Source: Tsukamurella spumae (GTDB taxonomy: Bacteria; Actinomycetota; Actinomycetes; Mycobacteriales; Mycobacteriaceae). Taken from it: 64,000 nt of DNA. How positions within the stretch are numbered: the first letter of the stretch is position 1; the number at the start of each line of letters is the position of its first letter. The notes below the pieces were generated by a model. The model had not been told where the DNA came from. It searched no databases and saw only the letters and a list, made by a program, of their open reading frames with translations. Position numbers and translations under genes: made by a program. Below, piece by piece: positions 24,074-63,490 of the stretch. The stretch covers positions 62,001-126,000 of the forward strand of contig NZ_JAAXOQ010000006.1 of the NCBI RefSeq assembly GCF_012396015.1, written 5' to 3'.

Positions 24074-24147
<74 letters not shown>

Positions 24148-24170
24148 CTCGTTGGTTGAGACGACAGCAG

Positions 24171-24218: not shown

Positions 24219-24602
24219 TCAGGGACCGCGGGTCTCTCTTCCCAGCTCAAGCTCCAACTCGGCGATGCTGGCGAGCACGGACGCAATCATGCGGCCCGCC
24301 GCCGTGGACGTGTCGATGCCTTCCCTCAGCGAGCGCAGCGTGATCCCGCGCGCGGACAGCTCGGCGATGGTCGAGGACACCTCGGCGACGGACCTGCCCA
24401 AGCGCTCAATGCCCACCACCAAGATCACATCGCCCGCGCGGGCGTAGTCCAGCATCGCTTGCAGCCCTGGGCGTTCCGTACCCGCTTTCCCGCTGAGGCG
24501 ATCCCCGAACATGCGCTCGCAGGGGAAGCTGTGGGCGAGGAGTTGATCCTCCTGCTGATCGAGCACCTACGCGGTCGTCGATACGCGGACGTACCCGAGC
24601 AT
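24219..24602 (-). pseudogene. Serine recombinase (resolvase) with amber stop and lost C-terminus
   Basis: From the ATG at 24602 the frame reads MLGYVRVSTTA, then TAG, then VLDQQEDQLLAHSFPCERMF. YVRVST carries the catalytic serine. Resolvases normally have a Gln or similar residue at the stop position, so a single CAG-to-TAG change is the simplest cause. The rest of the catalytic domain follows (DRLSGKAGTERPGLQAML, LVVGIERLGRSVAEV, LREGIDTSTAAGRM), but the protein ends at GRETRGP without the DNA-binding domain. It lies 71 nt from tRNA-Pro and looks like the dead recombinase of an old island. Confidence 0.85.
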
Positions 24603-24649
24603 GTGCGGACGCGCGGTGGTGTCAGTTCCCCATGTGTCCCAGTGTGGGA

Positions 24650-25553
24650 GGGGATGCTCGTCCGGCGTCTGACCGTGTGTCATGTCCCCCAGTTCTGGGT
24701 GAGTATTCCCCAATCGGGGTTGGGGTGTGGTCTTGGTGATCAGTGCTGGTTACCGTTCGCTGTGCAAGGTATCGAATCGGGTTGAGGACTGGTGAACGGG
24801 AGTGTTGCGGGTGCGAGAGCGCTTGGGATGGAATCGGTTTCGTTCTGATGATCGGTGGGGTTCTTTAGCTTGTGGGCGTTCGTTCGCATCGCGGATGTGG
24901 TGCCCGGTGGTGCTGGTGTCGGCGCTGCTGGCGGCAGCGGTGGCACTGTTCGGTACGGCGACGGCAGGTGCTGACCCCGCCCCAAAGCCGTCCGGTGACA
25001 TCACGCGGGTCAAGACCACACCTGATGGATTCACGATCACGATCAAGCTGCTCAAGAACCGCTTGGACGCAGTGCCCCCGCTCGACTCGTCCCCGTTCAG
25101 CCGCGAGGCGTTCTTGGCGGGGGACAACACGGTGAAGATCGATGGACCCCCTGGGGGCAAGCTGCTCGGCGCGAGCTTCGAAACGGGTTATCAGATTGGT
25201 TACCCCGCCAAGGTTGGCGCGGAAGGCGGCGCGACGGTGACTCTCACGACGCCTGATCTGTCGGTCAACGGCGGGGTGAACACGGGGCTGAACGCCTCCG
25301 TAACTCCCTCTGTCCAGGGCCAGGGCGGGATCAGCGGTGGTCAGCCGTCGGGGTCGGTCGGCGGCGGTGTCACGGGCACGGTCGGCGGCAACGTCGGCGC
25401 GAACGTCGGCGCGCAGTCCAAGATCATCCCTTCGCAGACGGCGACGTTCAAGATCGAGCACGGTGGGATCACCGAGGTGCCTATCGCGAAGATCGCCCTG
25501 ACCTCGCCGTCGGCCTACCTGAGCCTAAGCGGCGTTCACCTGTCCGCCAGCGG
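24650..25553 (+). repeat. 904-bp direct repeat, copy 1
   Basis: This segment is identical base for base, as far as I could compare by eye, to 30331-31234 (offset 5681). It holds the upstream region and most of the MspA-family porin gene. After 25553 the copies diverge by mostly silent changes to the end of the porin gene and then become different secreted-protein genes. Confidence 0.95.
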
Positions 25554-25656
25554 TGCAGCGGGCCAAATGACCGTTCGCACCTTCACCCGCGTGATCATGC
25601 GCACCGAGCTGGGCTCGACCCAGCAGGTTGCGTACGGTCCTGCGATCCGACTTTAG
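24802..25656 (+). CDS. MspA-family porin, copy 1
   Basis: Up to 284 residues, with a hydrophobic signal segment (about residues 32-57, MWCPVVLVSALLAAAVALFG, cleavage after TAGA). The mature part matches the MspA family: LDSSPFSREAFLAGD, LLGASFETGYQIGYPAKVG, VTLTTPDLSVNGGV, and a C-terminal AAGQMTVRTFTRVIMRTE. MspA proteins form octameric beta-barrel pores in the mycolic-acid outer membrane. Unusual is a Gly-rich insert at about 172-205. The start is uncertain: GTG 24802 gives a long basic leader, while ATG 24895 begins at residue 32. A secreted-protein gene follows after 9 nt. Confidence 0.85.
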   Translation: MLRVRERLGWNRFRSDDRWGSLACGRSFASRMWCPVVLVSALLAAAVALFGTATAGADPAPKPSGDITRVKTTPDGFTITIKLLKNRLDAVPPLDSSPFSREAFLAGDNTVKIDGPPGGKLLGASFETGYQIGYPAKVGAEGGATVTLTTPDLSVNGGVNTGLNASVTPSVQGQGGISGGQPSGSVGGGVTGTVGGNVGANVGAQSKIIPSQTATFKIEHGGITEVPIAKIALTSPSAYLSLSGVHLSASGAAGQMTVRTFTRVIMRTELGSTQQVAYGPAIRL

Positions 25657-25665
25657 GGAGATACG

Positions 25666-26568
25666 ATGCGAGTGTCTGCGAGTGTCCGTGCACTAATCGG
25701 CTTCGTGATCGCATCGCTCGTCGCAGCGATGCTGTCCGTCACTGCCAGCGCTCCTGCGGGGGCTGATCCTGCTGCTGATTGCCAGCGCGCGTGGACGCAG
25801 TACTGGACTTCAAACTTCCCAAACCAGCCTGTTCCACCCGTTCCTGCCGGGTGGTGCAAGCCGACACAGGTTCCGACACAGCCGACAATGACCCCGCTTC
25901 CCACGGGGCCAACGAACACAGTCCCGCCGTCGCCTGTCTCGCCCACCGAGACTGCTGGGGGTACGCCTCCTGCTGCGACGGCACCGCCCGCGCAAGGGAC
26001 GGGCACCCCAGCACGGACCCCTGCCAACCCTGCGGAGACGACATCGGCATTCCAACTGCCTGGTGGCGAGAGTTCGACACCGAACACGACGGCTGAAACC
26101 TCGACAACTGCGGAAACCACGTCAACGCAGCCTGAGACAACCTCTGCTACGACCAGCGCGCCCACAGAGACGACCGACTCCACGACGACGACGGACGCAC
26201 CTTCCGAAGAGACGACTGGAACGACTTCTGCGCCTGCGACTACTGAGCAGACATCGCAGACCAGCGCGACGAGCAGTGAGCAATCAACCGAGTCTCAGTC
26301 TACAGGAGACTGTTTCAAGCAGAATTATCCACAGGGGCTGGGTAAGCAGATGGTCAAGTCGGGCTTTATGGGTGCGCTCCGAGGCGCTGTCCAAGGTGCC
26401 ATTGTCGGATGTGTCGGCGGTGCCGTCATGGGCGCGGGCGTCGGCTGCGGACCTGCTGCTTTGGGCGGCGGGGTAATCGGTTTCGTCGGCGGCTTCGCAG
26501 GCGGCGCAATCGCTGGTGGCCCAGCCACTCAGGCTGGAAAGACCCTATACAACTGCAAGAAGAAGTAG
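25666..26568 (+). CDS. Secreted polymorphic-toxin-like protein, glycine-zipper C-terminus
   Basis: 300 residues in four parts. A signal peptide (1-33, cleavage near GAD) is followed by a conserved block (34-66) containing ADCQRAWTQYWTSNFPNQP with cysteines 39 and 64, then a long Pro/Thr/Ser-rich linker (67-212), then a C-terminal domain (about 213-300) with KSGFMGALRGAVQGAIVG and GGAVMGAGVGCGPAALGG repeats ending in cysteine and lysines. The last part is a glycine zipper typical of membrane-inserting peptides and bacteriocins. The first 66 residues and linker style recur in the protein at 31349, whose C-terminus is unrelated. Co-transcribed with the porin and followed by a membrane protein. 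Toxin role is inferred. Confidence 0.65.
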   Translation: MRVSASVRALIGFVIASLVAAMLSVTASAPAGADPAADCQRAWTQYWTSNFPNQPVPPVPAGWCKPTQVPTQPTMTPLPTGPTNTVPPSPVSPTETAGGTPPAATAPPAQGTGTPARTPANPAETTSAFQLPGGESSTPNTTAETSTTAETTSTQPETTSATTSAPTETTDSTTTTDAPSEETTGTTSAPATTEQTSQTSATSSEQSTESQSTGDCFKQNYPQGLGKQMVKSGFMGALRGAVQGAIVGCVGGAVMGAGVGCGPAALGGGVIGFVGGFAGGAIAGGPATQAGKTLYNCKKK

Positions 26569-26588
26569 TACGGCTCTAGGAGGTGAAG

Positions 26589-27023
26589 ATGAGTGATTCG
26601 AGACGAATTCTAGGGATCGCAGTCGCGGGACTCCCACTGTATGTGATTGTTTCAGCGCTCGCGTACCAGTCAGTTGGTCAACTAGATGTAAGTTCGCAGT
26701 CAGATGACCTTCCGACATGGATTCTGGTCGGGTTTTTGCTATTCGGAGCGTTATCGTTGGTGATGCTCGTATGGCTTATCCGCTCTCTGCGGTCAGGCGA
26801 TGACCCTGCGTCTATCGAAGCACGCAGAAACATTGCGATTGCAGTTGCTGTCGCGGTAATCGGCTCAATGCTGTTGGAGGGTGTGCTGCGAGTAGCATTT
26901 GAAATCGCGACTCCTGTACCGACCTTGATCTTGAGTGCGTGTACGTACCTCGCGGGAATCGCCCTGGCTGCGCTCGTTTTCTGGTGGCAGAATTCTAGCC
27001 AAGCTGAGCATGGTAGGGGCTAG
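26589..27023 (+). CDS. Four-helix membrane protein, candidate immunity protein
   Basis: The 144-residue product has four predicted helices (about 9-27, 43-65, 81-104 and 113-137) with short loops. ATG 26589 follows a strong AGGAGG site only 20 nt after the glycine-zipper gene. A small polytopic protein directly after a predicted membrane-active toxin is the usual position and type for an immunity protein. Base composition is clearly lower in GC than the flanking core genes. No family was recognised, so immunity is inferred from context. Confidence 0.55.
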   Translation: MSDSRRILGIAVAGLPLYVIVSALAYQSVGQLDVSSQSDDLPTWILVGFLLFGALSLVMLVWLIRSLRSGDDPASIEARRNIAIAVAVAVIGSMLLEGVLRVAFEIATPVPTLILSACTYLAGIALAALVFWWQNSSQAEHGRG

Positions 27024-27065
27024 TAGTTGACTCCGCGCGCGTAGGGCATTAGGGGGAGCTGAGCG

Positions 27066-27944
27066 ATGGACACCTTGTGGAATGTTCTTGCGTTCGTATC
27101 GGCTTGTTGGCTAGTCGTGGTTGGTGCGATATGTGGGCGTAGGCTTGTGTGCATCAGCAATAACCGTGGGAGCGGTGGGGGTGCCTTACGTGTGATTTCG
27201 ACGCACTTCGTCGTGAACTGGCGCAACTACCTGTGGTGCGCCGTTGCTGCCTCGGCCTTCCTGCTGATTTCCATCGTGCTAACCTCTTCAGAAGCCTCTT
27301 ATCATCGTGCGGCAGGAGTGGGGATCACGGTAGTGATCGCCTTTCTGTGCCTGGCAGGTTTGGTTGCGTCGGGCGTTGGGCGGAGGAAGCTCGATAGCTA
27401 TTTCTGGGTGGGTGCACTGTCTCTTGCGTTCGTCGTCGCCGCAATGAATGCGCCCTTATTTTCGAAACCGCCGGGAACGGTACGTTCCCTATCACACTTG
27501 GCTTCTATTCCAAACCAGTTCCCGTCTGAACCTGGAAGTGTGAAAGCGCCGATAGCGCAAGGAGATTGTACAAAGGTGACACCAAATCAATCAGGCAAGG
27601 GCGGCAAGTTTGTTGTCGCTAAGGTAGCATGCGGGGACGTCAGTCCTTATCGAGTCAATGCCGTTGTTGGAGTCGGTAGGTCGTGTCCCACGTCGGACTC
27701 CGACCTTGAGTTTAAAGCGAACGGGTACACGGCATGTCTCGATTATGACTGGGACGCAGTGAATTGCATGGTGATTAGTGGACCCGCAGTTGTGAAATTG
27801 CCGTGCAGTTCCCAAGTGACGTCGGGTAGAAAGCTGGTAGCTGACGCGCTAGTTACCGAGTCAACGGATGTCCAGCTGTGCTTAGAGGACGGTATCGTGC
27901 ATGCAGACAGACGATTCACTGTGTGTACGAAGTCTGTTCCCTAA
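27066..27944 (+). CDS. Membrane protein with Cys-rich extracytoplasmic domain
   Basis: 292 residues with four N-terminal helices (about 5-24, 57-75, 85-106 and 118-136), then a domain outside the membrane (about 140-292) containing eight cysteines, including GDCTKV, KVACGD, TACLDYDWDAVNCM and VQLCLEDG. The last part resembles a septum-formation-type (DUF4190/DUF4352-like) tail in cysteine spacing, but no match is certain. It is low in GC and follows the candidate immunity gene by 42 nt with a GGGGAG site. It may be a second immunity factor or unrelated island cargo. Confidence 0.5.
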   Translation: MDTLWNVLAFVSACWLVVVGAICGRRLVCISNNRGSGGGALRVISTHFVVNWRNYLWCAVAASAFLLISIVLTSSEASYHRAAGVGITVVIAFLCLAGLVASGVGRRKLDSYFWVGALSLAFVVAAMNAPLFSKPPGTVRSLSHLASIPNQFPSEPGSVKAPIAQGDCTKVTPNQSGKGGKFVVAKVACGDVSPYRVNAVVGVGRSCPTSDSDLEFKANGYTACLDYDWDAVNCMVISGPAVVKLPCSSQVTSGRKLVADALVTESTDVQLCLEDGIVHADRRFTVCTKSVP

Positions 27945-28276
27945 TCCTTCTCTCGGCTGACCCGCGAGATAAGAAGCCCACCGAACCCTAGATAGCTTCC
28001 ATATACAAGGAATGCGAGACTGTAGATCAGCACGGTGGTTGTTGTCGCGGTATTCGCAGTTGCGAACGCCGCAGTGCCGAAGAGTGCTATCGCCAGTACG
28101 GGGGCGGCTATCCAAAATGTAGCCTTCATTTTCGAGTCTCGGAGACGTCGAGGGATCGTTCCCGAAAGCATTGCTTCAACAAACCCCCATGATGGATTAT
28201 CGTGCTCGTCGCCCGTCGAATGCTCAGCAGCCTGGGTTTTTGTTCGATCCGCATTCGGTTTGTGTTTGTCCTCCAT
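27941..28276 (-). CDS. Small two-helix membrane protein
   Basis: 111 residues with a charged cytoplasmic N-terminus (MEDKHKPNADRTKTQ) and two helices (about 51-70 and 78-103). It converges with the preceding gene, overlapping its stop by 4 nt. Composition is AT-richer than the core. Function is unknown. The gap to the next gene (28277-28374) shows nothing recognisable. Confidence 0.45.
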   Translation of the reverse strand: MEDKHKPNADRTKTQAAEHSTGDEHDNPSWGFVEAMLSGTIPRRLRDSKMKATFWIAAPVLAIALFGTAAFATANTATTTTVLIYSLAFLVYGSYLGFGGLLISRVSREKD

Positions 28277-28374
28277 GATGGGGGCGATCCTCTCTTGTCT
28301 TGCTCGTTTAGAGCGCCACGCGGCTCAAGCATACCTGGATGTCCGAGAGCTTCTGCCTGGTCTGATTCTCGCGC

Positions 28375-28605
28375 TCACCTGCGCGTATCTAGTCCCCGAG
28401 CGAGCCCGTCCAACCACTCCTCGACCGCCCCACCACCGCGTATCCGCAGCCCCCTGTCCTGCTCGCGGTACAGGTCGAGCACGCTGATGTACGCGCCCAG
28501 CTCCTCTGCGCGGGCGACCGTGTGCGCCTCCTCGACCCGCCCGAGAAACACGGCGCGGGACAGGGCTGGGCGGTGGATCGTCATGCCCCCATGCTCCTCG
28601 CTCAC
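28375..28605 (-). CDS. Small ORF coupled to an antitoxin-like gene
   Basis: 76 residues if started at the GTG that overlaps the previous frame's stop (GTGA), or 69 from ATG 28584 (MTIHRPALSRAVFLGRVEEA). The product is soluble and acidic/basic mixed, with no motif I recognise. The coupled position suggests it belongs to the truncated toxin-antitoxin operon upstream. Confidence 0.4.
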   Translation of the reverse strand: MSEEHGGMTIHRPALSRAVFLGRVEEAHTVARAEELGAYISVLDLYREQDRGLRIRGGGAVEEWLDGLARGLDTRR

Positions 28606-28825
28606 GGCCCATCCAGGACCGCCAAGGCGTGCAGTAGATCAGCCCGACCGTACGCCGTGCCGACGGTGCGAGCACGGCCCCGTCCGCCCTCGTCATCACA
28701 GACGGGTGCACGAGCACGGCCACGGGCACCCCGTTGCGGGTCAGCGTGACGGGCTCGGACTCGCACCTGGCGATGAGCGCGGACAGGGCCGCGCGGGCGC
28801 GGTGCAGTGGGATGGTCGCGGTCAC
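28602..28825 (-). pseudogene. Phd/YefM-like antitoxin, probably frameshifted
   Basis: From GTG 28825 the frame gives VTATIPLHRARAALSALIAR then EPVTLTRNGVPVAVLVHPS, which matches the Phd/YefM antitoxin core (helix, then T-R-NG-PVAVLV strand). After about SARR near 28645 this frame runs on without stop, while the next frame gives AYGRADLLHALAVLDGP and a stop overlapping the following GTG. A single-base shift would join them into a protein of about 75 residues. Its GTG overlaps the upstream fragment's stop. It appears to be part of a broken toxin-antitoxin operon. Confidence 0.4.
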
Positions 28826-28985
28826 GGGCACCGACCACCGCGATGCGGCACGGGCAGGCCCGCTCGGCGTAGGCGGCTCGCGAGGTTCCGTGTGCCGCGC
28901 CAATCGCTCGGCGTGCGGGCGAGCACGAGCACGGGCAGATCGGGGCGGCACGGCGGTGGGACAAGCCGCAGGTGTCGGCGGCACG
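28822..28985 (-). pseudogene. HicA-like C-terminal fragment cut by the IS element
   Basis: About 54 codons remain, beginning exactly at the IS end: RRHLRLVPPP, then LARTPSDWRGTRNLASRLRR and AGLPVP. The pattern (basic-His strand, PSD-W-RG-RN, RLRRAGL) resembles small HicA/YcfA-type RNA-binding toxins. The stop overlaps the antitoxin-like GTG (GTGA). The 5' half is missing, replaced by the IS3-family element. A related N-terminal fragment lies at 33657-33839. Confidence 0.35.
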
Positions 28986-29015
28986 TGAACCGCCCCGGGT
29001 AGTCCGGAGACTGAC

Positions 29016-29954
29016 TCAAACAGGCACCGGCACCGGGTGGTGGGGTGCTCTTGCAGCGTAGTACGCGGCTTCGAGTTCGGCGGGTGGGATGTCGCCGCAG
29101 TACTCGTAGGGCCGCTGGTGATTGAACCAGTCGACCCATTCGGTGGTGCCGTATTCGACCTGCTCGACGGTCCGCCAGGGCTTGCGGGGTTTGATCAGTT
29201 CGGTCTTGTAGAGCCCGTTGATCGTCTCCGCGAGTGCATTGTCATACGAATCGCCAGCGGTACCAATGGAACCAGTGATTCCGGCGCCGACGAGACCTTC
29301 GGCGAAGCGGGCCGCGGTGTACTGCGCTCCCGCATCGGTGTGGTGAATGACCTCGCGCGGGTCATGCCCGTCGCGGTGGCGGGTCCACACCGCGTGGTCG
29401 AACGCCGCCAGCACCAGGTCGGTGGTCATGGTCGAGCCGACGGCCCAGCCGATGATCCGCCGGGCGTAGGCATCAGTGACGAACGCGACGTACGCCCACC
29501 CCGCCCACGTCGAGACGTAGGTCATGTCTGCCACCCACAGCTGGTTCGGGCGGGTCGGCGAGAAACTGCGTTGGACCAGGTCCGGGTAGCGATCAGCTCG
29601 GTGGCCGGAGATCGTGGTGCGTTTGACCTTCCCGCGCACCGCGCCGGCCAGGCCGGCCTCACGCATCAACCGTTCGACCGTGCAGCGGGCCACCGCCACG
29701 CCCATCCGATTGAGCACGATCCACATCTTCCGTGCCCCGAACACCGCGTAGTTCGCTGCATGAACATCCCGGATCTGATTGCAGAGCACCGCTTCCCGAA
29801 CCTCGGCAGCGGTCGCGGGGCGGTCAACGTGCTCGTAGTACGTCGAGGGGGCGATCTTCACACCGTGCTCGGTGAGCACCGCGCAGATCGGTTCGACACC
29901 CCACCGCAGACCACCCCCGTCACGCCGGTCGGCATGAGCACGGATGAAGTCCAC
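29016..29954 (-). CDS. IS3-family transposase OrfB (DDE integrase)
   Basis: The 312-residue frame holds an HTH_21-like region and the rve integrase core with catalytic residues Asp143 (WVADMTYVSTW), Asp207 (HHTDAGAQY) and Glu243 (YDNALAETINGLYK), spaced as in IS3 elements. It begins a few bases after the orfA stop in the -1 frame, so the working transposase is expected as an OrfAB fusion by programmed frameshifting. Both frames are intact, so the element may be active. Confidence 0.92.
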   Translation of the reverse strand: MDFIRAHADRRDGGGLRWGVEPICAVLTEHGVKIAPSTYYEHVDRPATAAEVREAVLCNQIRDVHAANYAVFGARKMWIVLNRMGVAVARCTVERLMREAGLAGAVRGKVKRTTISGHRADRYPDLVQRSFSPTRPNQLWVADMTYVSTWAGWAYVAFVTDAYARRIIGWAVGSTMTTDLVLAAFDHAVWTRHRDGHDPREVIHHTDAGAQYTAARFAEGLVGAGITGSIGTAGDSYDNALAETINGLYKTELIKPRKPWRTVEQVEYGTTEWVDWFNHQRPYEYCGDIPPAELEAAYYAARAPHHPVPVPV

Positions 29955-29956
29955 GA

Positions 29957-30280
29957 TCAGCCGTGTGGCCGGTCGAACTCGGCCGCGAAGAAAGCCGACG
30001 CCGCCTTCAAAATCGCGTTCGCGCGTTTGAGCTCGGCGTTCTCCCGCTTGAGCCGGCGGATCTCCTCCGACTCCACCGAGGTGACCCCCTCACGCTGGCC
30101 CGCGTCGACCTGCGCGGTTCGCACCCACTTACGGATCGACTCCGCCGTTGTCACCCCCAGCAACGGCGCGATCCGCTGCATCGCCGACCACTCCGACTCC
30201 CCGTCAGGCCGCTCGGCGACCATCCGCACCGCGCGCGCCTTCAACTCCGTCGGATACCGCCTCGATGTGTTCCCTGCCAT
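29957..30280 (-). CDS. IS3-family transposase OrfA
   Basis: 107 residues with a helix-turn-helix (RRYPTELKARAVRMVAE to about residue 60) and a leucine-zipper-like coiled coil (EIRRLKRENAELKRANAILK, about 73-93), ending FFAAEFDRPHG as in many actinobacterial IS3 OrfA proteins. It binds the inverted repeats and gives the DNA-binding half of the OrfAB transposase. Confidence 0.92.
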   Translation of the reverse strand: MAGNTSRRYPTELKARAVRMVAERPDGESEWSAMQRIAPLLGVTTAESIRKWVRTAQVDAGQREGVTSVESEEIRRLKRENAELKRANAILKAASAFFAAEFDRPHG

Positions 30281-30330
30281 GACTCCAACCTTCCAACATT
30301 CGGAGTCTCTGGACTACCCGGGGCGGTTCA

Positions 30331-31234
30331 GGGGATGCTCGTCCGGCGTCTGACCGTGTGTCATGTCCCCCAGTTCTGGGTGAGTATTCCCCAATCGGGG
30401 TTGGGGTGTGGTCTTGGTGATCAGTGCTGGTTACCGTTCGCTGTGCAAGGTATCGAATCGGGTTGAGGACTGGTGAACGGGAGTGTTGCGGGTGCGAGAG
30501 CGCTTGGGATGGAATCGGTTTCGTTCTGATGATCGGTGGGGTTCTTTAGCTTGTGGGCGTTCGTTCGCATCGCGGATGTGGTGCCCGGTGGTGCTGGTGT
30601 CGGCGCTGCTGGCGGCAGCGGTGGCACTGTTCGGTACGGCGACGGCAGGTGCTGACCCCGCCCCAAAGCCGTCCGGTGACATCACGCGGGTCAAGACCAC
30701 ACCTGATGGATTCACGATCACGATCAAGCTGCTCAAGAACCGCTTGGACGCAGTGCCCCCGCTCGACTCGTCCCCGTTCAGCCGCGAGGCGTTCTTGGCG
30801 GGGGACAACACGGTGAAGATCGATGGACCCCCTGGGGGCAAGCTGCTCGGCGCGAGCTTCGAAACGGGTTATCAGATTGGTTACCCCGCCAAGGTTGGCG
30901 CGGAAGGCGGCGCGACGGTGACTCTCACGACGCCTGATCTGTCGGTCAACGGCGGGGTGAACACGGGGCTGAACGCCTCCGTAACTCCCTCTGTCCAGGG
31001 CCAGGGCGGGATCAGCGGTGGTCAGCCGTCGGGGTCGGTCGGCGGCGGTGTCACGGGCACGGTCGGCGGCAACGTCGGCGCGAACGTCGGCGCGCAGTCC
31101 AAGATCATCCCTTCGCAGACGGCGACGTTCAAGATCGAGCACGGTGGGATCACCGAGGTGCCTATCGCGAAGATCGCCCTGACCTCGCCGTCGGCCTACC
31201 TGAGCCTAAGCGGCGTTCACCTGTCCGCCAGCGG
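30331..31234 (+). repeat. 904-bp direct repeat, copy 2
   Basis: Identical to 24650-25553. It starts at the base after the IS3-family right end, so whatever preceded the porin in this copy has been lost. The identity ends inside the porin gene at 31235, where silent differences begin (GGCGCTGCGGGGCAG against GGTGCAGCGGGCCAA). Confidence 0.95.
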
Positions 31235-31337
31235 CGCTGCGGGGCAGATGACCGTTCGCACATTCACCCGCGTGATCATGCGCACCGAGCTGGGCTCCAC
31301 GCAGCAGGTTGCCTACGGTCCTGCGACAAAACTGTAG
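30483..31337 (+). CDS. MspA-family porin, copy 2
   Basis: Same 284-residue protein as copy 1 apart from the last residues (ATKL in place of AIRL). The final 100 bp differ from copy 1 at many synonymous sites, which means the 3' ends are older than the identical 5' part and that gene conversion or a recent recombination made the rest uniform. It is followed 11 nt later by a secreted protein with a different C-terminal domain. Start uncertainty is as for copy 1 (alternative ATG at 30576). Confidence 0.85.
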   Translation: MLRVRERLGWNRFRSDDRWGSLACGRSFASRMWCPVVLVSALLAAAVALFGTATAGADPAPKPSGDITRVKTTPDGFTITIKLLKNRLDAVPPLDSSPFSREAFLAGDNTVKIDGPPGGKLLGASFETGYQIGYPAKVGAEGGATVTLTTPDLSVNGGVNTGLNASVTPSVQGQGGISGGQPSGSVGGGVTGTVGGNVGANVGAQSKIIPSQTATFKIEHGGITEVPIAKIALTSPSAYLSLSGVHLSASGAAGQMTVRTFTRVIMRTELGSTQQVAYGPATKL

Positions 31338-31348
31338 GGGGCTGACCA

Positions 31349-32428
31349 ATGAGACTTGACGTAACTGCGCGTACCTTCGTTTCCGCTCTGATTGGCGTAT
31401 CGGTTGCGGTGACTGCGGTGGGGTTCGCTGCGCCCGCGTACGCTGATCCTGCCGCTGATTGCCAGCGTGCGTGGACGCAGTATTGGACTTCGAACTTCCC
31501 AAACCAGCCCGTTCCACCCGTCCCCGCTGGCTGGTGCAAGCCGCCGACAACTCCGACGCAGACGACTATGGCGCCTCTTCCGACCGTGCCAACCAACACG
31601 GTGGCTGTCTCGCCCGTATCGCCCACAGAAACAACGCCAACCACGTCGGCTCCGTCTGCGATTGCACCGACTGGGTCGCCATCTGCACCCCTTACGCCTG
31701 CAAACCCCGCAGAGACTACAGCGCCGTTCCAGCTCCCAGGAAACGGCTCGCCGTCGGGTGGTGATTCTGAGGTGGTTGCGCTTCGCGCCATCTCCGCGCG
31801 AAATTACAACGTCCCAATTGATCGCCTCCGTAGCGAGTTTACGCAGTACGCGAAGGCGAATGATAAGCGCTATATGGACGTTTTGAATCAAGCCAAGGTC
31901 AATGCGGACAGGGCGGTCAATAGCGACGACACGGTATCAATTGGCGGTTCAGGGGGCGTGTGCGGAAAGCCGCCGAACCAGCAGCTTGGGCGGGCAAGAA
32001 ATGTAGGCGACTTCTTCTTCTCCGACTCGTGTAAGGGAAATGGCATAGCGGCGTACAACCATGGGCACAATGGCATATTTGTGACATTGGAGGACACTGT
32101 TGAATCCAATGACGAGAAGGGGGTTCACTACGTTTATCGCGCAGATTTGACAATGCGTCTTAATCCGCGCAAGTACAGTGTGAAACTCAGCAACGCAGCG
32201 CGCGAAGGCGCTGCGTCTTACGCCAAGTCGAAGATCGGCAAGGGGTATAATGCGGCAGGGTTCGCCTTCAATAAGAAGGGTGGTCCGTCGGTTAATTCGT
32301 TCAACTGCTCTCAGCTGATCTGGGCTGCGTACTACGAAGCGCCAGGAGGTCGTGACCTTGACGACGGTGGGGGTCCTGGTGTGTATCCTCGCGATCTGAC
32401 CACTGGTCCATACGTGTCAAGCTACTAG
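31349..32428 (+). CDS. Secreted polymorphic-toxin-like protein, permuted NlpC/P60 C-terminus
   Basis: 359 residues. Signal peptide (1-32), the same conserved block as the protein at 25666 (33-65; ADCQRAWTQYWTSNFPNQP, cysteines 38 and 63) and a Pro/Thr-rich linker to about 140. The C-terminal domain (about 210-359) has His240 in NHGHNGIFVTLED, then Cys320 in NSFNCSQLIWAAYYE, and GGGPGVYPRDLTTGPYVSS at the end. His-before-Cys order and the CSQLIW and GVYPRDL motifs fit the permuted NlpC/P60 (YiiX/YebB-like) hydrolases, which cut amide or ester bonds in peptidoglycan or lipids. A lipoprotein gene follows after 13 nt. Toxin role is inferred. Confidence 0.7.
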   Translation: MRLDVTARTFVSALIGVSVAVTAVGFAAPAYADPAADCQRAWTQYWTSNFPNQPVPPVPAGWCKPPTTPTQTTMAPLPTVPTNTVAVSPVSPTETTPTTSAPSAIAPTGSPSAPLTPANPAETTAPFQLPGNGSPSGGDSEVVALRAISARNYNVPIDRLRSEFTQYAKANDKRYMDVLNQAKVNADRAVNSDDTVSIGGSGGVCGKPPNQQLGRARNVGDFFFSDSCKGNGIAAYNHGHNGIFVTLEDTVESNDEKGVHYVYRADLTMRLNPRKYSVKLSNAAREGAASYAKSKIGKGYNAAGFAFNKKGGPSVNSFNCSQLIWAAYYEAPGGRDLDDGGGPGVYPRDLTTGPYVSSY

Positions 32429-32441
32429 CGAGGAGCTGGCA

Positions 32442-33656
32442 GTGCAGCTACGACGACGGGTGCTCGGTATCGGAGCCACGATTGTTCTGGCGATCAGCGC
32501 TCAAGGGTGTGGTCCCGGGGAAGCTGACATCGATGTCTCTTTATTAGGCCCGTCTGTGGAACGCCTGCCTTCGGATGCTGTGGCAGCAGTGATGTTGAGT
32601 CCGCTCGATGTCCAATTCAAGAAGGGGTCGATCGCAGACATATCACGGCTGGTTTTCTTAAATCGCGACATGCAGCCCGTCGGACACTTGCGCGCCTTAG
32701 GGATGTTTCGATCTCAGTTGGTCAGGGTTGGGGACGTTCTCGGGTTCGTCGACCGTGAAAACTCTCTGACTGTCTCCAAAGACGGTCTGCAGCGCCGCCA
32801 GATGGGGCCGTTCGGTATCTCGGCGGTTGGCGCTTCTGCACGGCAATCGGGCCAGCAGGCTGTGATTTGGACCGACGGCGGGATTAAGTCCGCGCAGACT
32901 GGCTACGAATCGCACCTCGTGCGATTCAGGCCGAACGGTACCGTGGAGAGTGCCCAAGTTGAAGGTCGACTCGTCGCCTCTGGGGTGTGTGGCTCCGACC
33001 ACCTTGCGATCATGGAATCGGTCGGTTCAACCCCAGCGTCGCGAGTTGTATCGGTCAGTGACTCAGGCATTCGACAGGGCGCGCCCTGGGCGGGCGGATC
33101 GTCCCAGAGTGGACGTGAAATGCCTTGGGCTTGCCTCAATCAACAGGTGAGAGTTTACCTCACCAACTCCACCTACGGCAACGGAGTCGGGGGCACGGGA
33201 GTGTGGACAATTGCGCTGGGAACCTTAGCGTCCGACGACGGCGAGAGCCACTATTTCAACAACTCGACCCCTGCCGAGTACGCAAATCTTCAAAATGAGT
33301 GGCGTTCGGTTGTTGCGACGGGTGATGCCTGGTGGCAAGAGGGCGGGGAGAGGCGATTCGTTCGTGAGGATGGAGCCGTTGCTCAACTCGCGGCGGACGG
33401 ATTGAGCGTAAGCGAGGTCTTCCGAGCCAAGGCGCGCAACGAAACTGTTATGGCAGCTGACATGGTCTCGCCTCAAAGCTCGGGGTTGACCTATTCGATT
33501 GTTCGCAACGGTGATGCGGAGGATCAGGTGCTGTCCATAGTGTCCAAGCATGACGGTAGCGCGAAGAGGTTCGCCAACCTGGAGTGGTTGCGAAAGGCGA
33601 CTCTGGGGCAGCCTTTCGGGATATCCGACGTGGCGGCCCTTCGAGAGATCGGCTGA
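32442..33656 (+). CDS. Lipoprotein, candidate immunity to the hydrolase
   Basis: 404 residues with a lipoprotein signal (LGIGATIVLAISAQGC; Cys23 is the lipidated residue) and a large extracytoplasmic part rich in short strands with repeated V-G-D and W-x-x-G segments, perhaps a beta-propeller. GTG 32442 follows GAGGAG and lies 13 nt after the hydrolase gene. A surface-anchored protein is where an inhibitor of a secreted hydrolase would be needed. No family was recognised. The stop at 33656 coincides with the point where a HicA-like remnant begins on the other strand. Confidence 0.55.
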   Translation: MQLRRRVLGIGATIVLAISAQGCGPGEADIDVSLLGPSVERLPSDAVAAVMLSPLDVQFKKGSIADISRLVFLNRDMQPVGHLRALGMFRSQLVRVGDVLGFVDRENSLTVSKDGLQRRQMGPFGISAVGASARQSGQQAVIWTDGGIKSAQTGYESHLVRFRPNGTVESAQVEGRLVASGVCGSDHLAIMESVGSTPASRVVSVSDSGIRQGAPWAGGSSQSGREMPWACLNQQVRVYLTNSTYGNGVGGTGVWTIALGTLASDDGESHYFNNSTPAEYANLQNEWRSVVATGDAWWQEGGERRFVREDGAVAQLAADGLSVSEVFRAKARNETVMAADMVSPQSSGLTYSIVRNGDAEDQVLSIVSKHDGSAKRFANLEWLRKATLGQPFGISDVAALREIG

Positions 33657-61858: not shown

Positions 61859-63490
61859 GTGGGAATACGAAGTAGGCGGTGGCCGGCGGCGCGGGCGATC
61901 CTCGCTACCGCGGTCGCGGCGACCCTGGCGGTGTCGGGGTGCAGCATGGAGGGCGCGAGGTCCGTCAACACGACGGGGCCGAACGCGATCATCCGCGCGT
62001 ACGCGGGCGAGCCCCAGAACGGGCTCGTGCCCACTGACACCAACGAACAGATGGGCGGGCGCATGATCCGCTCCCTGTTCACCGGTCTGTATCAGTACGA
62101 CGCGGACGGCAAGCTGCAGCTGGCGAATGCGCAGTCGGTGGACACCACCGACAACAAGCATTTCGTCGTCAAGCTCAAGCCCGGTTGGAAGTTCACCGAC
62201 GGTACGCCCGTGAAGGCCTCCAACTATGTGCGGGCGTGGAACTTCGGTGCTGCGGTCGGGAACCTGCAGAAGCAGCAGGACTTCTTCGCCGCGATCGACG
62301 GTTTCGAAGACGTCTCGCACAAGGGCACGTCGACCACCGAGATGCGCGGCTTGAAGGTCGTCGACGACAACACCTTCACGATCGACCTCACGGAGCCGAA
62401 CATCGACTTCAAGCTGAGTCTCGGCCACACCCCCTTCGTTCCGCTGCCCGACGTCTTCTTCACCGAGGGCAAGGACAAGTTCGGCCAGAACCCGATCGGC
62501 AACGGCCAGTACAAACTGAAGCAGTGGCGACACAACGTGCAGGTCGACATGGTGCGCAACGACGACTACCAGGGTACGAAGCCGAAGAACGGCGGCTTGA
62601 CCTTCATCCTCTACGCCACGCTCGATGCGGCGTACGCCGACCTCGGGTCGGGCAACCTCGACGTGATGGAGATCCTGCCGCCCAGCGCGCTGCGCTCGTA
62701 CAAGAAGTCGCTGGGCTCGCGCGCGATGGTCAAGCCGACCGCGCAGACCCAGGCCTTCTCGATCCCGGAGTACCTGGACCACTTCAAGTACGACGAGGAG
62801 GGACGGCTGCGTCGTGAGGCCATCTCGATGTCGGTCGACCGGGACCTCATCGTGGACAAGATCTTCTTCGGTACCCGTATTCCCTCGGTGGACTTCACGG
62901 CCCGCACGATCCCCGGTTGGGATCCGAACATCCCGGGCAACGACACGCTCAAGCACAACCCGGACAAGGCCAAGCAGCTGTGGGCACAAGCCAACGCGAT
63001 CCGCCCCTGGGATGGGATCTTCAGCATCGCGTACAACACCGATGGCGGCCACCAGACCTGGGTGGACGCGGTGTGCGGCCAGATCACGAACACGCTCGGC
63101 ATCCAGGCGCAGGGCAAGCCCTACGCCACCTTCAAGCAGATCCGCACCGAAGTAACCGCGCGCTCGCTGAAATCTGCGGCTCGGACCGGCTGGCAGGCGG
63201 ACTACCCTTCGCTCCTCAACTTCCTGGGGCCGCAGTACATCAGCACCGGCAGCTCGAACGACGCGGTCTACAGCAATCCAGAGTTCGACGCGAAGGTCCG
63301 CGCCGCGGAGCAGGCTCCCGACCAGACGGCGTCGAACCGGCTGGCGAACGAGGCGCAGGTGATCCTCCTACGCGATCTGCCGGTGGTGCCGTTGTGGGAC
63401 TACCTGGCGGTGGGCGGCCGCGCGGACGGTGTCAACGCGGAGCTCACCTGGAGCGGTGACCCCGACTATCCGAACATCACCAAGGAGTGA
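61859..63490 (+). CDS. dppA: Peptide-binding lipoprotein (DppA/OppA type)
   Basis: 543 residues: lipoprotein signal ending LAVSGCS (about Cys26), then an SBP_bac_5 domain (GRMIRSLFTGLYQYDADGKL, VVKLKPGWKFTDGTPVKASN, DDNTFTIDLTEPNIDFKL, GNGQYKLKQW). It captures peptides outside the membrane for the ABC permease that follows 6 nt after. GTG 61859 has an ideal GGAGGAAG site and was chosen over the longer frame. Its position next to acs equals M. tuberculosis Rv3666 (dppA). Confidence 0.92.
   Translation: MGIRSRRWPAARAILATAVAATLAVSGCSMEGARSVNTTGPNAIIRAYAGEPQNGLVPTDTNEQMGGRMIRSLFTGLYQYDADGKLQLANAQSVDTTDNKHFVVKLKPGWKFTDGTPVKASNYVRAWNFGAAVGNLQKQQDFFAAIDGFEDVSHKGTSTTEMRGLKVVDDNTFTIDLTEPNIDFKLSLGHTPFVPLPDVFFTEGKDKFGQNPIGNGQYKLKQWRHNVQVDMVRNDDYQGTKPKNGGLTFILYATLDAAYADLGSGNLDVMEILPPSALRSYKKSLGSRAMVKPTAQTQAFSIPEYLDHFKYDEEGRLRREAISMSVDRDLIVDKIFFGTRIPSVDFTARTIPGWDPNIPGNDTLKHNPDKAKQLWAQANAIRPWDGIFSIAYNTDGGHQTWVDAVCGQITNTLGIQAQGKPYATFKQIRTEVTARSLKSAARTGWQADYPSLLNFLGPQYISTGSSNDAVYSNPEFDAKVRAAEQAPDQTASNRLANEAQVILLRDLPVVPLWDYLAVGGRADGVNAELTWSGDPDYPNITKE

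Follow-up and report, generated by a model that had tools for sequence, protein, structure and literature searches.

MspA-family porin genes coupled to probable polymorphic toxin cassettes in Tsukamurella spumae and Gordonia

Gene layout of the two cassettes

The window, i.e., the whole stretch of DNA analysed, comprises 64,000 nt of Tsukamurella spumae (NZ_JAAXOQ010000006.1, GCF_012396015.1; contig positions 62,001–126,000, forward strand). It contains two cassettes with a common gene order, in which an MspA-family porin gene is followed by a gene for a secreted-type protein (sec1 or sec2) and then by genes for membrane or lipid-anchored proteins. The features are as follows (CTD, C-terminal domain).

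24074..24148, + strand: tRNA-Pro(cgg), just 5′ of cassette 1 (ARAGORN)
24219..24566, − strand: ORF with a serine resolvase N-terminal domain, between the tRNA gene and cassette 1 (Pfam Resolvase, E 2.5e-24)
24649..25550, + strand: 5′ module copy 1, i.e., upstream region and most of the porin gene, 100% identical to 30330 onward (repeat search, sliding identity)
24802..25656, + strand: porin 1, MspA family, 284 aa, group A (Pfam PF09203, E 6.3e-36; 1UUN MspA, E 6e-10)
25666..26568, + strand: sec1, with Sec-type signal (by eye), two-cysteine block, Pro/Thr linker, NPAETTSAFQLPG motif and glycine-zipper-like CTD (translation, block profile, motif)
25762..25857, + strand: two-cysteine block of sec1
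26305..26565, + strand: sec1 CTD, glycine-rich, four cysteines (translation; without Pfam match)
26583..27023, + strand: 146-aa candidate immunity protein for sec1 with four TM segments (translation, TM prediction)
27066..27944, + strand: protein of 292 aa, membrane segments at the N terminus (by eye), C-terminal part LppU-like (phrog_21858; NCBIfam NF049864 at E 1.5e-13, below cut-off)
28986..30330, − strand: IS3-type insertion sequence, terminal inverted repeats of 27 bp (96%) (Pfam rve, HTH_Tnp_1; flanking bases)
30483..31337, + strand: porin 2, MspA family, 99% identical to porin 1 (whole-genome scan, E 1.8e-35)
31349..32428, + strand: sec2, with Sec-type signal (by eye), two-cysteine block, Pro/Thr linker, NPAETTAPFQLPG motif and YiiX/C92-like CTD (translation, Pfam, block profile, motif)
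31442..31537, + strand: two-cysteine block of sec2
31766..32425, + strand: sec2 CTD, with the motifs NHGHNG and NCS conserved in a permuted papain-like (YiiX/C92) fold
32442..33656, + strand: 404-aa candidate immunity protein for sec2 with a lipoprotein-like signal (lipobox by eye; relatives behind homologous CTDs)

Every element of the two-cassette plan described in the initial annotation was recovered: the MspA porin, the short gap from the porin stop to the sec start (9 nt for sec1, 11 nt for sec2), the shared two-cysteine block and Pro/Thr linker, the unrelated CTDs and the membrane or lipid-anchored genes. The IS3-type element, whose right end abuts cassette 2, sits between the cassettes, and the span is therefore not a single continuous operon. 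The resolvase-domain ORF is a mobile-element remnant, and the tRNA gene is possibly the insertion site of an island. In a synteny comparison, a flank gene was found in 9 of 16 genomes of the window's genus.

The DNA of the two cassettes is 100% identical from 24649 and 30330, respectively, over ~900 nt (to about 25550 in cassette 1; sliding identity). Identity (30-nt windows) falls to 0.17–0.43 in the codons of the signal peptide, recovers to 0.87–0.93 across the block and disappears in the CTD. This succession of high identity in the porin, low identity in the signal codons and high identity again in the block shows that the block is conserved beyond a simple recent duplication.

Porin 1 scores 124.4 bits against PF09203 (cut-off 22.9) and resembles the MspA of structure 1UUN in sequence. 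Porins 1 and 2 are among six MspA matches in the whole-genome scan, and a search of plasmids for porin relatives found none. Porins of this family are known chiefly as nutrient channels and nanopore tools.

Secreted proteins and candidate immunity proteins

The segment common to sec1 and sec2 consists of ADPAADCQRAWTQYWTSNFPNQPVPPVPAGWC and the Pro/Thr-rich linker, which is nearly uncharged, and the similarity of their CTDs is below detection. In Pfam (E up to 1), porin 1, sec1 and sec2 gave only MspA, a sub-threshold C92 match and two chance-level matches; neither secreted protein matched WXG100, LXG, a TPS domain or any other known toxin leader domain. By eye, the sec1 CTD is membrane-active in character. 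The sec2 CTD has a permuted papain fold in which His and Cys are conserved, scores 20.2 bits against Peptidase_C92 (cut-off 27) and is matched by phrog_29771. PDB sequence searches with this CTD and with that of the block protein L098 gave no match, nor did a search of phages for the sec2 CTD.

The predicted immunity gene of sec1 has a G+C content of 0.533 vs. 0.685 for the window, with a single weak relative (E 5.9e-4) among 290 other genomes and no match in the plasmids searched. Relatives of the 404-aa gene behind sec2 adjoin homologous CTDs, directly 3′, in four Gordonia loci, and profile comparison finds further relatives 3′ of C92 genes in other genera.

These further C92 CTDs follow leaders made of LGFP repeats, in records from Rhodococcus, Nocardia, Corynebacterium and Prescottella. 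Three of the LGFP proteins score above the Peptidase_C92 cut-off (L120, L121, L135) and three below (L119, L136, L137). The gene 3′ of them encodes 354–408 aa, at a gap that ranges from overlapping to 30 nt on chromosomes and is 83–178 nt on plasmids, where C92 CTDs occur in three records, all LGFP-type. The chromosomal downstream family is related to that of the 404-aa gene in a profile comparison that left out the three plasmid genes (prob 90.6, E 1.3e-6). The LGFP-C92 proteins thus resemble sec2 in having a homologous CTD and a downstream gene of similar length, profile-related for the chromosomal set, but differ from it in a leader made of LGFP repeats. No MspA relative was found near their genes in stretches of 4.7–10.6 kb.

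Recurrence in Gordonia and related genomes

A profile of the block yields 36 strong copies, spread over 18 of 59 Gordonia genomes; a search with the block adds one in the window's genus, giving 39 with the two of the window. G. alkaliphila WW102, an environmental strain, carries several cassettes. The block searches left out five of eight matches at E 0.01–0.1 in one case and three of 39 at E above 0.004 in another. MspA lies immediately upstream of 35 of the 39 block genes (20 genomes), contrary to a block found mostly without the porin. The exceptions are L092 (a 15-residue trace), L093, L096 and L113; L100 and L101 each have an interrupted porin reading frame. Altogether, 323 MspA matches occur in the 59 Gordonia genomes, of which 32 are block-linked, and the block-linked porins fall into three divergent MspA groups (A, B and C). 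At order level the block was found in at least 3 of 397 sampled genomes and at phylum level in at least 4 of 346 (for both samples, part of the first-look candidates scored). Two extra phylum-level matches (E 6e-4 and 8e-4) were short and judged to be chance, and L016 (E 7e-4, with a stop inside) was excluded by its ORFs.

The closed block proteins are 232–567 aa long as called, with export signals recognised by eye. Linker length is 34–38 residues where the leader has the group C motif (17 leaders) and 55–58 where it has the group A motif (three leaders). Rather than one recurring CTD, the 39 proteins carry about 19 CTD groups (blastp; four truncated or decayed CTDs left out), including the YiiX/C92-like papain fold, Amidase_6, calpain and an M10-type protease. 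In the 19 block proteins scanned with Pfam, a CTD family was recognisable in only four, with Peptidase_C2, Amidase_6 and Peptidase_M10 above cut-off in three. The CTD of L115 looks HNH-like by eye and gave no Pfam match; an aerolysin-like identity of the L079, L083 and L088 CTDs, seen by eye only, was dropped. A crude classifier places 26 of 36 downstream genes as membrane or lipid-tethered, and SMI1_KNR4/SUKH-1 is above the Pfam cut-off in one of ten downstream proteins scanned, a Gordonia gene.

Two modules that vary separately

Porin and leader vary together, as do CTD and downstream gene. Porin distances correlate with leader distances over 31 loci (Mantel r 0.64, p 0.0001; within-genome permutation p 0.0019), and the correlation of porin with CTD distances is r 0.07 (p 0.08). 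The porin–leader covariation may reflect linkage rather than contact. For CTD and downstream gene, 528 pairs from 33 loci comprise 12 that share both, five that share the CTD only (without blastp-detectable downstream homology) and none that share the downstream gene only (permutation p 5e-5). All 12 pairs with homologous downstream genes are thus CTD-homologous too, but they form three clusters only, and 10 of them stem from a single cluster of five C92 loci.

Interpretation and alternatives

The combination of a shared leader with many CTDs, CTD-specific downstream genes, C92 domains on LGFP leaders with a profile-related gene behind them, and a SUKH-1 gene argues strongly for the polymorphic toxin reading of the initial annotation, and the cassettes very likely represent such a system with an MspA-coupled leader. 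The further suggestion that the porin is a dedicated partner gains from the recurrent adjacency to three divergent MspA groups and from the porin–leader covariation.

We consider it fairly probable that these are toxin–immunity cassettes built from two modules, i.e., a delivery module of porin and leader (Sec-type signal, two-cysteine block, Pro/Thr linker of near-fixed length and second short motif) and a payload module, in which the variable CTD is joined to an adjoining downstream gene that would protect the producer. Sec would export both porin and toxin, the porin would assemble in the producer's mycomembrane and the leader may dock on its own porin. The unfolded, nearly uncharged linker could then permit release of the toxin through the porin or its display at the surface, and the putative toxin would attack neighbouring cells at their envelope or in their interior. 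The MspA constriction is narrow, and a folded CTD should therefore not pass. A more specific version, in which the porins are dedicated conduits or anchors of a two-partner-like route through the mycomembrane, with the block docked at the inner face of its cognate porin, the linker threading the pore and the toxin displayed or released outside, is offered tentatively; the group C linker would measure roughly 11 nm if extended, close to the length of MspA.

Export or display is favoured over a role of the porin as receptor or entry pore on neighbouring kin, where the cassette copy would keep kin susceptible or give the producer control of uptake. This alternative appears unlikely, even though 15 of 28 similar Gordonia MspA porins (E up to 1e-20) have no block neighbour (two of the 15 at contig ends; the other 13 have one), as a receptor could, the near-identical porins of the window accompany different payloads, and the many membrane-tethered downstream candidates fit toxins that reach the target periplasm. 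Receptors of known toxins are usually unlinked, however, and in 35 of 39 cases the porin gene stands directly 5′ of the putative toxin gene, which suits a role on the producer side. Still less probable is a porin without physical role, either a 5′ passenger that provides promoter and exchange homology or a channel for nutrient uptake after killing. The complete identity of the ~900-nt upstream and porin region between the cassettes would be expected of a recombination anchor, and most Gordonia MspA genes lack a block partner; leader distance, however, tracks porin distance even under within-genome permutation, and three divergent MspA groups in the same position indicate that the association has outlasted homology at the DNA level.

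Very improbable, too, is an ordinary function of the secreted proteins as cell-wall enzymes, adhesins or effectors directed at a host, next to unrelated lipoprotein genes. C92, Amidase_6, calpain and M10-type domains do occur in ordinary secreted enzymes, but this explanation sits poorly with a single leader that bears about 19 unrelated groups of CTDs, with downstream genes specific to the CTD, with the SUKH-1 gene, with CTDs that LGFP leaders carry as well and with copies that are broken or truncated. The modular toxin–immunity reading would enlarge the polymorphic toxin repertoire by a class of leader and by many toxin-like domains, so far uncharacterised, with candidate immunity proteins. 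The passage of proteins through the mycolic-acid outer membrane has long been an open question, and a recurrent, covarying porin–toxin pair in non-model Gordonia offers a tractable genetic system for porin-based export, anchoring or import of proteins.

Comparison with known systems

No description of an MspA-coupled toxin system appeared in the titles and abstract openings among the matches listed in the literature search. CpnT of Mycobacterium tuberculosis, as presented in excerpts of PMC8092274 and PMC8593097, joins leader and toxin in a single protein that depends on type VII secretion. CpnT/TNT resembles the present proteins as an outer-membrane-crossing protein with a C-terminal toxin domain; the cassettes, in contrast, divide the parts between two genes with Sec-type signals, and sec1 and sec2 carry no WXG-type Pfam domain, which leaves the analogy to CpnT drawn at the outset a weak one. 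According to an excerpt of PMC8092301, the WXG-100 polymorphic toxins of Mycobacterium abscessus prophages are type VII substrates whose partner is ESAT-6-like; like the present putative ones, they form toxin and immunity cassettes in a related mycolic-acid bacterium, with a porin taking the place of that partner here.

In CdiB/CdiA and two-partner secretion of Gram-negatives, an outer-membrane pore gene also adjoins that of an exported protein that has a conserved block near its N terminus. The pore here is of MspA type rather than FhaC/CdiB, the closed exported proteins have 232–567 aa as called, and an FhaC/POTRA transporter with a TPS-domain partner was not found by Pfam in porin 1, sec1 and sec2 (E up to 1). 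Polymorphic toxin systems have a constant leader, swapped CTDs and an immunity gene directly 3′. The present cassettes share with them the constant leader, the swapped CTDs, an immunity-like 3′ gene, CTDs that occur across leader types and SUKH-1, and they differ from the known systems in the coupling of the leader to the gene of an MspA-type mycomembrane porin.

Cassette layout and surroundings

The initial annotation had described a polymorphic toxin system coupled to MspA porins in two cassettes (24650..33656). In each cassette, a secreted-type protein (sec1 or sec2) comes after the porin and carries a Sec-type signal (judged by eye), a conserved two-cysteine region (the block), a Pro/Thr linker and a C-terminal domain (CTD); the signal, block, linker and a second motif make up the leader.

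24802-25656, porin 1, MspA-family (Pfam MspA, E 6.3e-36)
25666-26568, sec1
26583-27023, cassette 1 membrane protein, 146 aa, four predicted membrane segments
27066-27944, cassette 1 membrane protein, 292 aa
28986-30330, IS3-type element with 27-bp inverted repeats, adjoining cassette 2
30483-31337, porin 2 (MspA match in the whole-genome scan)
31349-32428, sec2
32442-33656, cassette 2 lipoprotein-like gene, 404 aa

Porins 1 and 2 are two of the six MspA matches in a scan of the whole genome. Porin 1 was aligned with solved MspA, 1UUN (E 6e-10; 3.5e-10 with the trimmed porin), placing the DDGD of 1UUN, whose acidic residues form the MspA constriction, opposite NGGV. The block occurs twice in this genome, a third row of the search (E 0.37) being left out.

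The DNA of the two cassettes is 100% identical starting at 24649 in cassette 1 and 30330 in cassette 2 and reaching to about 25550 in cassette 1, and identity drops at the porin end and across the signal peptide. The block DNA is 87–93% identical while the signal-peptide DNA has diverged, showing that the block is conserved across a diverged signal peptide; the CTD DNA is unrelated. The G+C content is 0.685 for the window and 0.53–0.55 for the genes downstream of sec1 and the sec2 CTD, and a tRNA-Pro followed by a resolvase remnant lies upstream of cassette 1. The region looks like island DNA. A Phd/YefM antitoxin domain was observed in ORF 28325-28984 (-), beside the IS element, and relatives of the C-terminal part of the 27066-27944 product occur in 14 prophage records of Mycobacterium abscessus, where the genes are labelled hypothetical or lipoprotein.

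Linkage of the block to MspA porins

A search of 16 Tsukamurella genomes with the 54-residue block gave one more strong match (genome G014, E 1.4e-9), whose porin is 86% identical to the window porin and lies 10 nt from the block gene. Using the window porin against 401 genomes of the family (at most six candidates scored per genome), genomes including Gordonia alkaliphila WW102 and G. effusa NBRC 100432 were found to carry an MspA porin followed by a secreted-type protein bearing an analogous block, AETPAERCKRETxAYNxAWK...PPxPYxC. In an alignment with the window block, two cysteines, one tryptophan and two prolines are invariant across nine sequences. A block profile yielded 36 strong matches (E below 1e-13), spread over 18 of the 59 Gordonia genomes. 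At order level it matched in 3 of 397 genomes and at phylum level in 4 of 346, where two of the matches were chance-like.

MspA lies directly upstream in 34 of the 39 block loci examined (the 36 Gordonia matches, the G014 locus and both window loci), with gaps of −9 to +98 nt when measured to the called ORF starts; L082, with a porin tail at its contig start, is the 35th. No MspA gene was seen upstream of the block gene in L093, L096 and L113, nor in L092, which has just a 15-residue trace, and the porin frame is interrupted in L100 and L101. Because MspA matches number only roughly five per Gordonia genome (323 in 59), chance adjacency is estimated for well under one of the 36 Gordonia loci. 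The adjacency is not reciprocal, as most MspA genes lack a block neighbour; among 28 Gordonia porins from the window-porin search, 13 have such a neighbour, and the other 15, two of which sit at a contig end, have none. At three further Gordonia loci (L021, L035, L039), the porin is followed, 2–7 nt on, by a Pro/Thr-rich protein of 134–151 aa that has a hydrophobic stretch near its N-terminus and lacks both block and CTD. Its ending, GSF(N/T/V)LP, is similar to PFQLPG, a motif found in the window leaders; this protein is possibly a non-toxin porin partner.

By eye, the porins form three divergent groups, A in Tsukamurella and B and C in Gordonia. In the three group A loci the second leader motif reads NPAETT..FQLPG or close to it; the form GPxL..PT... 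belongs mostly to group B loci, and group C loci have HAPTDIP...PI. The second motif was parsed in 31 of 39 leaders (8 without a parse), and the linker from the second cysteine to it spans 55–58 residues with the A motif (3 leaders), 34–38 with the C motif (17) and 34–41 in 10 of 11 parsed B-motif leaders, the eleventh (L083) being misparsed as 216 where the motif position gives 36. Leader distance follows porin distance (Mantel r 0.64, p 0.0001, 31 loci; within-genome permutation p 0.0019), whereas porin distance is hardly correlated with CTD homology (r 0.07, p 0.08, 31 loci); this set omits five loci without a porin ORF, L100, L101 and the duplicate L099.

The CTD and its downstream gene

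Pairs of loci were compared for CTD and downstream gene (33 loci, 528 pairs; exact duplicates L082 and L099, three contig-cut genes and L101, without a downstream ORF, were left out). Both are shared by 12 pairs, the CTD alone by five and the downstream gene alone by none (permutation p 5e-5); in one CTD-only pair, L083/L092, a related gene is present further downstream. Since five loci with the C92 CTD (the YiiX/Peptidase_C92-like papain-type domain of sec2) supply 10 of the 12 pairs, the association represents three independent clusters.

A crude hydropathy and lipobox classifier placed 26 of 36 downstream candidates as membrane or lipid-tethered and 9 as soluble (two transposase-like by eye), with one absent. 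SUKH is an immunity superfamily, and in the Gordonia locus L100 a SUKH-1 protein above the Pfam cut-off follows, after 2 nt, a CTD that appears nuclease-like by eye; this was the only immunity-type match among ten downstream proteins scanned.

The C92 CTD behind LGFP leaders

Scanning the genome collection for the C92 CTD gave eight loci, three in two Gordonia species and one each in Corynebacterium tapiri, Rhodococcus sp. SMB37, Nocardia uniformis, a C. glucuronolyticum bin and an Acidobacteriaceae bin. LGFP repeats are present in L119, L120 and L121, L123 being cut by its contig, and in all four a gene of 367–408 aa follows. The 404-aa window gene gave no tblastn match to these genes at 1e-3; a profile comparison nevertheless showed the two families to be related (228 columns, prob 90.6, E 1.3e-6). 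Three plasmid records share the LGFP–C92 layout, with a 354–390 aa gene 83–178 nt after, and no MspA relative was found in the chromosomal and plasmid stretches examined. The LGFP repeats thus seem to be a further type of leader for polymorphic toxins in mycolic-acid bacteria, one not described among the literature matches listed.

Among the LGFP loci, L119, L120, L121, L135 and L136 have the same C92 CTD behind LGFP leaders and then a 354–408 aa gene, and in L137 (2011-3950, a Prescottella equi conjugative plasmid) the LGFP–C92 gene is split into two annotated frames before a 376-aa gene. The Acidobacteriaceae-filed L122 (1-4699), possibly a misbinned contig, has a broken C92 CTD flanked by two relatives of the 404-aa gene.

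Proposed working

At the level of sequence, a constant porin–leader module is combined with an exchangeable module of CTD plus downstream gene. The CTD would be toxic, the downstream gene protective, and the porin would act with the leader. At about an even chance, we favour a role for the producer's own porin, through which the toxin would be exported or on which it would be displayed. That the porin is instead the receptor seems unlikely, and that it has no physical role, less likely still. LGFP repeats probably retain proteins at the mycolic-acid cell wall; therefore, both the porin-linked and the LGFP leaders may serve to put the toxin at the surface.

Comparison with known systems

Polymorphic toxins have been described before, among them WXG-100 types from prophages of M. 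abscessus (PMC8092301), and mycobacteria have a known toxin in CpnT (PMC8092274; PMC8593097). An MspA-coupled toxin system is not described among the literature matches listed, and thus the cassettes are best read as a variant within a known toxin class, the MspA-coupled delivery module being the part for which we found no description. By analogy only, the glycine-rich CTD of sec1 and the four-segment membrane protein downstream resemble a bacteriocin of the pore-forming kind paired with its membrane-bound immunity protein.
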